From Bacteroidaceae bacterium (lineage in GTDB: Bacteria > Bacteroidota > Bacteroidia > Bacteroidales > Bacteroidaceae), in NCBI GenBank assembly GCA_017429945.1, contig JAFRNY010000006.1, positions 1 to 36,727 of the forward strand: DNA of 36,727 nucleotides. Reading direction: 5' to 3'. The notes beneath the pieces are model-generated. The model did no database searches and had not been told where the DNA came from. It was given only the letters and a program-made list of their open reading frames with translations. The stretch's first letter is position 1, and the number at the start of each line of letters is the position of its first letter. This document shows positions 35,775-36,615 of the stretch, piece after piece. A program made the translations under genes and the position numbers.

Positions 35775-35776
35775 TG

Positions 35777-35851
35777 CGGTGCGTACGAGGCTCGAACTCG
35801 TGACCCCATGCGTGACAGGCATGTATTCTAACCAGACTGAACTAACGCACC
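35777..35851 (-). tRNA. tRNA-Asp (anticodon GTC)
   Basis: Minus-strand gene of 75 nt: acceptor GGTGCGT/ACGCACC, D arm with AGTCTGGTTA loop, anticodon stem CATGC/GCATG with loop CTGTCAC (anticodon GTC), variable loop GGGTC, T arm ACGAG/CTCGT with TTCGAGC loop, discriminator G. All four stems close. CCA is not encoded. Confidence 0.97.
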
Positions 35852-35890: not shown

Positions 35891-36084
35891 AGCATAATGT
35901 ACGAGATAAAAAAGAATATCAGGAAAAAATACACTACAGAGGCTGTTTTTAATGCTATTTTAGCTGTTTCGGCCTATTTTATAGGGCTTTTATAAGATAA
36001 AGCATGCGCAAATGTCCTCATCACGCTGCTGTGCCAACAATAATATAGGAATGGTGTAGATATTTTTTCAAAAGAAAAGTTGAA

Positions 36085-36106
36085 TTTCACTGTCACCGTC
36101 ACTTTT
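36085..36106. repeat. Left outer arm of nested palindromic element
   Basis: A 22-bp arm, complementary in inverted orientation to 36345-36366 at 21 of 22 positions. The one exception (T36091 with G36360) can pair as a G-U wobble in RNA. Confidence 0.85.
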
Positions 36107-36141
36107 TCTTGCAATGAACTGAGCTATAACGTCTTATGTGC

Positions 36142-36167
36142 AGTGAAGGTGAATATTCACCTTCACT
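36142..36167. repeat. Perfect 26-bp palindrome P1
   Basis: Half-site AGTGAAGGTGAAT followed by its exact reverse complement, with no spacer. It shares 22 of 26 positions with P3 (36284-36309). Confidence 0.97.
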
Positions 36168-36180
36168 CGCATTTTGACCA

Positions 36181-36221
36181 GTTGAATTGAAGTAAAACAA
36201 CTTGTTTTACTTCAATTCAAC
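36181..36221. repeat. Perfect 41-bp palindrome P2
   Basis: Twenty-base arms (36181-36200 and 36202-36221) around a single C. The arms are AT-rich (half GTTGAATTGAAG...) and unrelated to P1 and P3. Confidence 0.97.
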
Positions 36222-36282
36222 CGAGGGTATAGCTTAACATTCCTGGGTGTTTAGGCCGATATGCCCGTTTAAGTATGAAAAA

Positions 36283-36310
36283 CAGTGTAGGTGAAATTTC
36301 ACCTACACTG
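36283..36310. repeat. Perfect 28-bp palindrome P3
   Basis: Half-site CAGTGTAGGTGAAA followed by its exact reverse complement. It is related to P1 through the core AGTGNAGGTGAA. Confidence 0.97.
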
Positions 36311-36344
36311 CCCTTAACGTGTTTATCTTTCGGGAGTTACAAGC

Positions 36345-36366
36345 AAAAGTGACGGTGACGGTGAAA
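36345..36366. repeat. Right outer arm of nested palindromic element
   Basis: Partner of 36085-36106. It contains AGTGACGGTGACGGTGAAA, which again carries the GGTGAA core of P1 and P3. Confidence 0.85.
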
Positions 36367-36615
36367 AATAAAAAATGTTTTCTTGAAAAAATAATCGTTC
36401 GCTTTCTCATAAACGTATAGAGAAGCTGACACAAATGTATTTAGAGGCTGTTATTATCTATCAGAGATACAAATCTATGGTCCGCATACAGAATTTGGTC
36501 GGTATTGTTTTGCAGAATGTGTTAGTCTGAATGAAATATTATTCACCTATGAGGATGTGTGCATTTATGAGAATTGTGTTTACGGGTCACTAGTGTCCAC
36601 TAAAAATGTACGAGT

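Follow-up and report, generated by a model that had tools for sequence, protein, structure and literature searches.

The palindrome cluster at 36142-36310 of the window (the whole stretch of 36,727 bases analysed here) is probably part of one copy of a dispersed, non-coding MITE-type repeat that belongs to a new MITE-like, non-autonomous family. The element spans ~333 bp (~36061-36393), with arms that reach further out than the 36085-36366 interval given in the initial annotation, and its ends read TATTTTTTC.. and ATTTCTTTC... The three perfect palindromes of 26, 41 and 28 bp proposed there were confirmed. The 22-bp inverted arms described around them are also present; they pair at 21 of the 22 positions, a single T/C difference being the exception. 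An additional, outer pair of arms (36061-36081 and 36373-36393) is 81% complementary. The features of the element and its neighbour are as follows.

36050..36177, plus strand: left end module (outer AT-rich part, iterons, fixed spacer and P1); 117.5 bits with the covariance model, this row having been used in model building
36061..36081, plus strand: outermost left inverted arm, AT-rich, beginning with TA
36085..36106, plus strand: left iteron block TTTCACTGTCACCGTCACTTTT
36142..36167, no strand: P1, perfect 26-bp palindrome AGTGAAGGTGAAT/ATTCACCTTCACT
36181..36221, no strand: 41-bp palindrome with 20-bp arms and an odd centre, containing the 19-bp core GTAAAACAACTTGTTTTAC at 36192-36210
36222..36282, no strand: spacer from the central palindrome to P3, alignable among copies in the 8-copy alignment
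36283..36310, no strand: P3, perfect 28-bp palindrome
36345..36366, minus strand: right iteron block, inverted copy of 36085-36106 (21/22)
36274..36406, minus strand: right end module, inverted; 114.2 bits with the covariance model, 36274-36401 being the model-building row
36373..36393, minus strand: outermost right inverted arm, closing with TA
35776..35851, minus strand: tRNA-Asp(gtc), a neighbour outside the element

Apart from P1, the 41-bp palindrome and P3, the window contains no palindrome whose arms reach 9 bp. When the window was simulated 60 times with a first-order Markov model, the longest palindrome per run measured 14 to 23 bp. Moreover, the pattern AGTGNNGGTGAA has four matches in the window, which are the four half-palindromes, against 0.06 expected. 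A chance origin of the cluster was rejected on these two grounds. The window copy contains no ORF that reaches 60 aa, in keeping with the earlier statement that no ORF explains the element.

Each end of the element consists of one module of ~128 bp, made up of an outer AT-rich part, iterons (TTTCAC..TCAC...CACTTTT), a fixed spacer and a 26-bp palindrome. The element is composed of two inverted copies of this module, the near-perfect palindrome forming the inward end of each. CAC motifs are iterated along it, with three in the outer block and a similar TTCACC..CACT in both palindrome arms. Our set comprised 23 modules, 17 from the same genome as the window and six from UBA4372 (the MAG 'Prevotellaceae bacterium UBA4372'); an iteron-like match at C18:56542, with two mismatches and without a module, was excluded before this count. 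All 23 modules align without gaps from the iterons through the palindrome, except for one inserted base in one UBA4372 module. The mean major-base fraction is 0.92 in the iterons and 0.96 in the palindrome, compared with 0.59 in the spacer and 0.46 in the outer part (gaps counted against). A covariance model of the module, used to search 84 sources, recovered the 23 modules, by construction, and a single new one, in UBA4372 (L204, 66 bits, cut by the contig end). The initial annotation had pointed out that P1 and P3 are identical at 22 of 26 positions, that their differences form two symmetric pairs and that each lies 71 bp from the centre of the outer arms. These observations are correct, and the likeness and equal distances arise because P1 and P3 correspond to each other by homology, one in each of the two inverted module copies.

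Whole-genome searches placed the element at 10 or more loci of its own genome. Seven of these loci are two-ended (C34, which is the window copy, C70, C42, C12, C9, C53 and C57) and three are one-ended (C16, C46 and C35). The element gave 96 matches at E ≤10 in this genome, with the best 40 of 52 candidates scored, so that the number of loci is at least 10; most of the 96 matches are core-only pieces or second readings of the palindromes. The 8-copy alignment was made without C57, which has an insertion, and without the one-ended copies. In UBA4372, the element is found at three places, and a further copy is truncated by a contig end. Among 61 genomes (its own and 60 relatives, with at most the 11 best candidates scored per genome), its own and G315 have matches at E ≤0.001, that in G315 covering just 36 bases of the centre. 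A degenerate pattern of the 26-bp palindrome, run against genome_contigs (84,980 species, with records near the window's genome possibly excluded), retrieved UBA4372 alone, on three contigs. No element matches were found in plasmids, phages or viral contigs. The pattern was to be considered an isolated accident should there be no other copies; copies exist, and it is not one. The tRNA-Asp neighbourhood mentioned in the initial annotation looks incidental, as the other copies adjoin various protein ORFs (tRNA genes were sought in the window only).

A block of 337 bp is common to the copies C9, C42, C12, U050 and U052, at 92-96% identity, despite differing flanks, which, at the sequence level, is as would be expected of a mobile repeat. 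In C9, the block is 94.4% identical to that of C42 and 92.6% to that of C12, and the flanks are unlike; U050 and C42 share an identical 337-bp extent at 95.8% identity. Flanks are common to C42, C12 and U052 and, separately, to C9 and U050. Thus, the five near-identical copies stand for no more than two insertion sites. The remaining copies are ~70-87% alike, and their ends are less sharp and fade out. The window copy and some others have TA at either end (as judged by eye, in AT-rich regions), but C42, C12 and U052 lack it; no consistent target-site duplication was found among the copies. No transposase-bearing parent was seen, the iteron pattern matching only element ends and C18:56542 in the own genome (an assembly 82% complete). 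The window's locus has no orthologue among the UBA4372 matches, which, besides element pieces, are two stretches at 70-71% identity. The mobility of the element is inferred, since this leaves no pair of filled and empty sites to compare. We also searched the own genome for the empty site of the insertion in the UBA4372 locus L051 and found no clear match to the flanking genes among the best 40 of 91 candidates; the matches were pieces of the element, the core and the VapE gene, plus two of 35 bases.

The flank common to C42, C12 and U052 ends in what we take to be an RHS-core-like sequence. At L090, L099 and L052, element copies were seen directly behind RHS-core-like sequence (DWYDYGARRYDPAY in the own copies). 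The RHS-adjacent copies of the own genome and UBA4372 are 95-97% identical over ~516 bp, in contrast with just 70-71% for two stretches of window genes. Judging from these identities, recent transfer or mis-binning is possible.

Prokaryotic MITEs are short, non-coding, dispersed sequences with inverted ends and no transposase. The window element is short (~333-337 bp, below the limit of ~600 bp) and gene-free, it has terminal inverted repeats, and the family is dispersed in multiple copies with common ends at unrelated sites, with two kinds of flank. A new miniature element was one of the options listed in the initial annotation, and it is the number of loci, the fixed module architecture and the 337-bp block between unrelated flanks that speak for it. 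In contrast with other prokaryotic MITEs, the ends are very long and compound, with nested perfect palindromes, and the family has neither a parent IS nor a clear target-site duplication among the searches made. We propose that the element is copied to new places by an enzyme acting in trans, which would bind the iterons and palindromes of both ends. The strong conservation of these parts relative to the spacer would then reflect a binding-site requirement rather than an RNA structure. Where P1 and P3 differ symmetrically, the cause might be a two-fold symmetric binding site or a hairpin that tolerates paired change, and the descent of both ends from one module would underlie this pattern too.

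The 19-bp palindrome at the centre also occurs without the element ends, in dozens of intergenic tandem arrays. This core (GTAAAACAANTTGTTTTAC) is present in the own genome at 34 places exactly, at two with one mismatch and at four with two mismatches, compared with none for the reversed control. Exact cores were found in 4 of 301 family genomes (the own and 300 others), namely 34 in the own genome, 20 in G075, two in G157 and one in G281; UBA4372, which was found outside this count, contains the core too. In the own genome, the core GTAAAACAASTTGTTTTAC lies mostly amid 22-bp-periodic arrays, with a single core at most sites, and the window copy has one intact core, within its 41-bp palindrome. 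Identity at lag 22 is 0.461 around the 24 exact own core sites outside end-module loci, versus 0.251 (sd 0.016) at other lags, and 0.317 around the 20 G075 sites, versus 0.256 (sd 0.017) at other lags, a smaller effect in which lag 24 comes next with 0.298. When the pattern was relaxed at its ends, the distance between neighbouring cores was 66 bp in G157 and at 13 of the 14 G075 loci, and 65 bp in L051 and at two own loci. At the sampled loci, no core lies inside a script-called ORF of 140 aa or more (0/37 own, 0/14 G075). Convergent placement of cores is enriched (Fisher p 7e-4 own, 1.8e-4 pooled), as counted with script-called ORFs of at least 140 aa, without annotation, and excluding five own and two G075 loci at stretch ends.

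At own-genome loci among L087-L125, intergenic 22-bp semi-palindromic units (of types around CCCTTAAGGG and ACCGGT) meet at a GTAAAACAASTTGTTTTAC unit, and the unit types often differ between its two sides; examples are L102:2792-2945, L105:2584-2870, L116:2395-2590 and L119:2508-2760. In G075, which belongs to another genus, the 19-bp palindrome is mostly paired at a distance of 66 bp (L140-L153), with variants CCAAAACAA..TTGTTTTGG and mixed arms.

The initial annotation took the paired changes as a sign of a maintained fold. The paired changes are partly real, but their reading as a maintained fold is weak, and several modules break the pairing. In the 26-bp palindrome of the 23 modules, double changes occur in four cells, a level matched in 2 of 500 shuffles, and in 3 of 13 pairs, matched in 18 of 500; the shuffled mean is 1.1 in both cases, and sliding the partner by +3 gives two and two. 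Twelve of 299 cells are unpaired, seven of them at the central pair, and four pairs are broken, in 1, 2, 2 and 7 modules. The covariation score of the modules exceeds all 500 shuffles, and related sequences without structure also give such scores. For the eight whole copies, 6 of 79 pairs show a double change, compared with a shuffled mean of 2.0, a value reached by 1 of 500 shuffles, and three with the partner slid by +3. Covariation is thus real but modest, it is confounded by descent, and it is equally compatible with a symmetric DNA site and with an RNA stem; since several modules break the pairing, the paired changes do not prove an RNA. It is unlikely, in our opinion, that the element is a structured RNA, a bidirectional transcription terminator or a 3' stabiliser whose fold is kept at gene ends. 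Such a role would agree with the double changes and with the predicted fold of the 333 nt, at -139.5 kcal/mol versus -69.3 +/- 4.6 for 100 shuffles (z -15.4), but a strong predicted energy is expected of any nested inverted repeat, and the covariation term of the alifold prediction is -0.99 of -88.6 kcal/mol. Convergent ORFs flank the 19-bp core at 16 of 32 loci in the own genome and at 6 of 12 in G075, compared with 17 of 97 other ORF pairs at these loci, a placement that counter-selection of insertions in promoters would also yield. No Rfam match at the gathering score was found in the window except the tRNA, and a host housekeeping RNA fits poorly with the near-absence of the element from relatives. 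Quite improbable, too, is a cluster of binding sites for a regulator or a nucleoid protein, in which the iterons would be operator sites with a host function. The iteration of one motif in the outer blocks and in both arms of the palindrome, with a conservation of 0.92-0.96 versus 0.59 for the spacer, is compatible with it, and a dimer site suits the symmetric changes. However, whole units of ~330 bp with common ends are dispersed rather than sites alone, the flanking ORFs differ between copies and the distribution is patchy.

Two candidates for the origin of a mover were considered. That the element is REPIN-like and moved by a RAYT (a Y1 transposase) appears extremely improbable. The 19-bp palindrome does occur in pairs 65-66 bp apart, GTAG is present in the left palindrome arm of 19 of 23 modules, and three of the four core-bearing genomes tested (the own, G157 and G281) have a Y1_Tnp match. 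Yet the fourth, G075, which is 99% complete and has 20 exact cores, has no Y1_Tnp (PF01797) match, and this largely refutes the reading. In addition, 3 of 11 core-free genomes have such a match, neither motif was found within 2.1-3.4 kb at each of the five loci scanned out of nine listed Y1 loci, and GTAG, itself a part of the palindrome, is missing from 4 of 23 modules. A single gene for a Y1-type (RAYT-like) transposase was observed in the own genome (L156), with no core palindrome nearby. The other candidate comes from UBA4372, where two end modules enclose an ORF for a VapE-like protein of 672 aa with a BT4734-like N-terminal domain (L051:5472-7941). Iterons combined with palindromes resemble replication origins, and the ends could in principle be those of a primase-helicase element whose autonomous form carries this BT4734_N + VapE gene; we regard this as very improbable. 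L051 is the lone case among the VapE-like loci. We collected 31 others (28 from relatives and three own) and submitted 24 of them, all but L230-L236, to the module model; none gave E <0.1, the nearest being L218 (0.12) and L209 (0.88). An inverted-repeat scan of the 31 loci, several with short flanks, yielded unrelated repeats at most, including L086 with a score of 25, equal to that of L051, for a different sequence. As these loci have no module-like inverted repeats, VapE was rejected as a general parent, and in L051 cargo or chance is likelier than parenthood. An HU-like gene lies just outside the end modules of L051. HU-type genes beside the core (L051 and L054) were dropped as partners, one of 14 G075 loci showing one among the listed ORFs (by eye); phmmer detected an HU-like ORF at 3 of 32 VapE loci, and missed the HU gene of L051, which is cut by the stretch end.

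The MITE-like reading of the window element can be compared with described systems. The closest precedent in design is BrickBuilt of Porphyromonas gingivalis, an intergenic, non-coding MITE described from P. gingivalis and P. gulae, with 19 copies in ATCC 33277 (PMC4596501). It consists of a leader and a tail with inverted ends and tandem short units within, and some copies are leader- or tail-only (PMC4596501). The family analysed here is likewise intergenic and non-coding, with inverted ends, short tandem units and some one-ended copies. In contrast, the BrickBuilt unit is 23 nt, compared with 22 bp around the 24 own core sites, its 12-nt ends (GAGACCTTTGCA, IS5-like) are absent from the ends of the window element, and its leader is unlike its tail, the two ends of the window element being instead copies of one palindrome-bearing module (PMC4596501). 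Thus, the window element is not a member of BrickBuilt, because its ends and unit length differ. Like REPINs and REPs, our sequences are extragenic palindromes, with core pairs at a fixed spacing in G075; unlike them, they have no RAYT match in G075, and their core, a perfect palindrome of 19 bp, is set in a 22-bp period. A search of open papers retrieved no description of the element family, and with half of the 19-bp core as a literature string, the matches listed looked unrelated from their titles and the beginnings of their abstracts.

Altogether, the initial interpretation of the element is partly supported. Our verdict is a new family of MITE-like elements whose palindromic end modules are unusual; with it goes a 22-bp array system that extends more widely and is not as well understood. 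As for how the two are connected, we tentatively offer a speculative model, itself rather unlikely. In this model, GTAAAACAASTTGTTTTAC would be the recognition site of a putative mobility or array-building enzyme with a patchy distribution across several genera of the family, which would seed intergenic, 22-bp-phased, semi-palindromic arrays, in which cores are paired at a distance of three units; the window element would be a form that has acquired palindromic ends of its own. If true, neither a RAYT nor a known IS would be responsible for moving this repeat system. The patchy core counts across the family genomes make a comparison of gene presence possible. An odd palindrome cluster thus resolves into a defined family of repeats, for which a consensus end module can be given, connected to 22-bp brick arrays that are built, in few of the genomes searched, around an almost invariant 19-bp palindrome.
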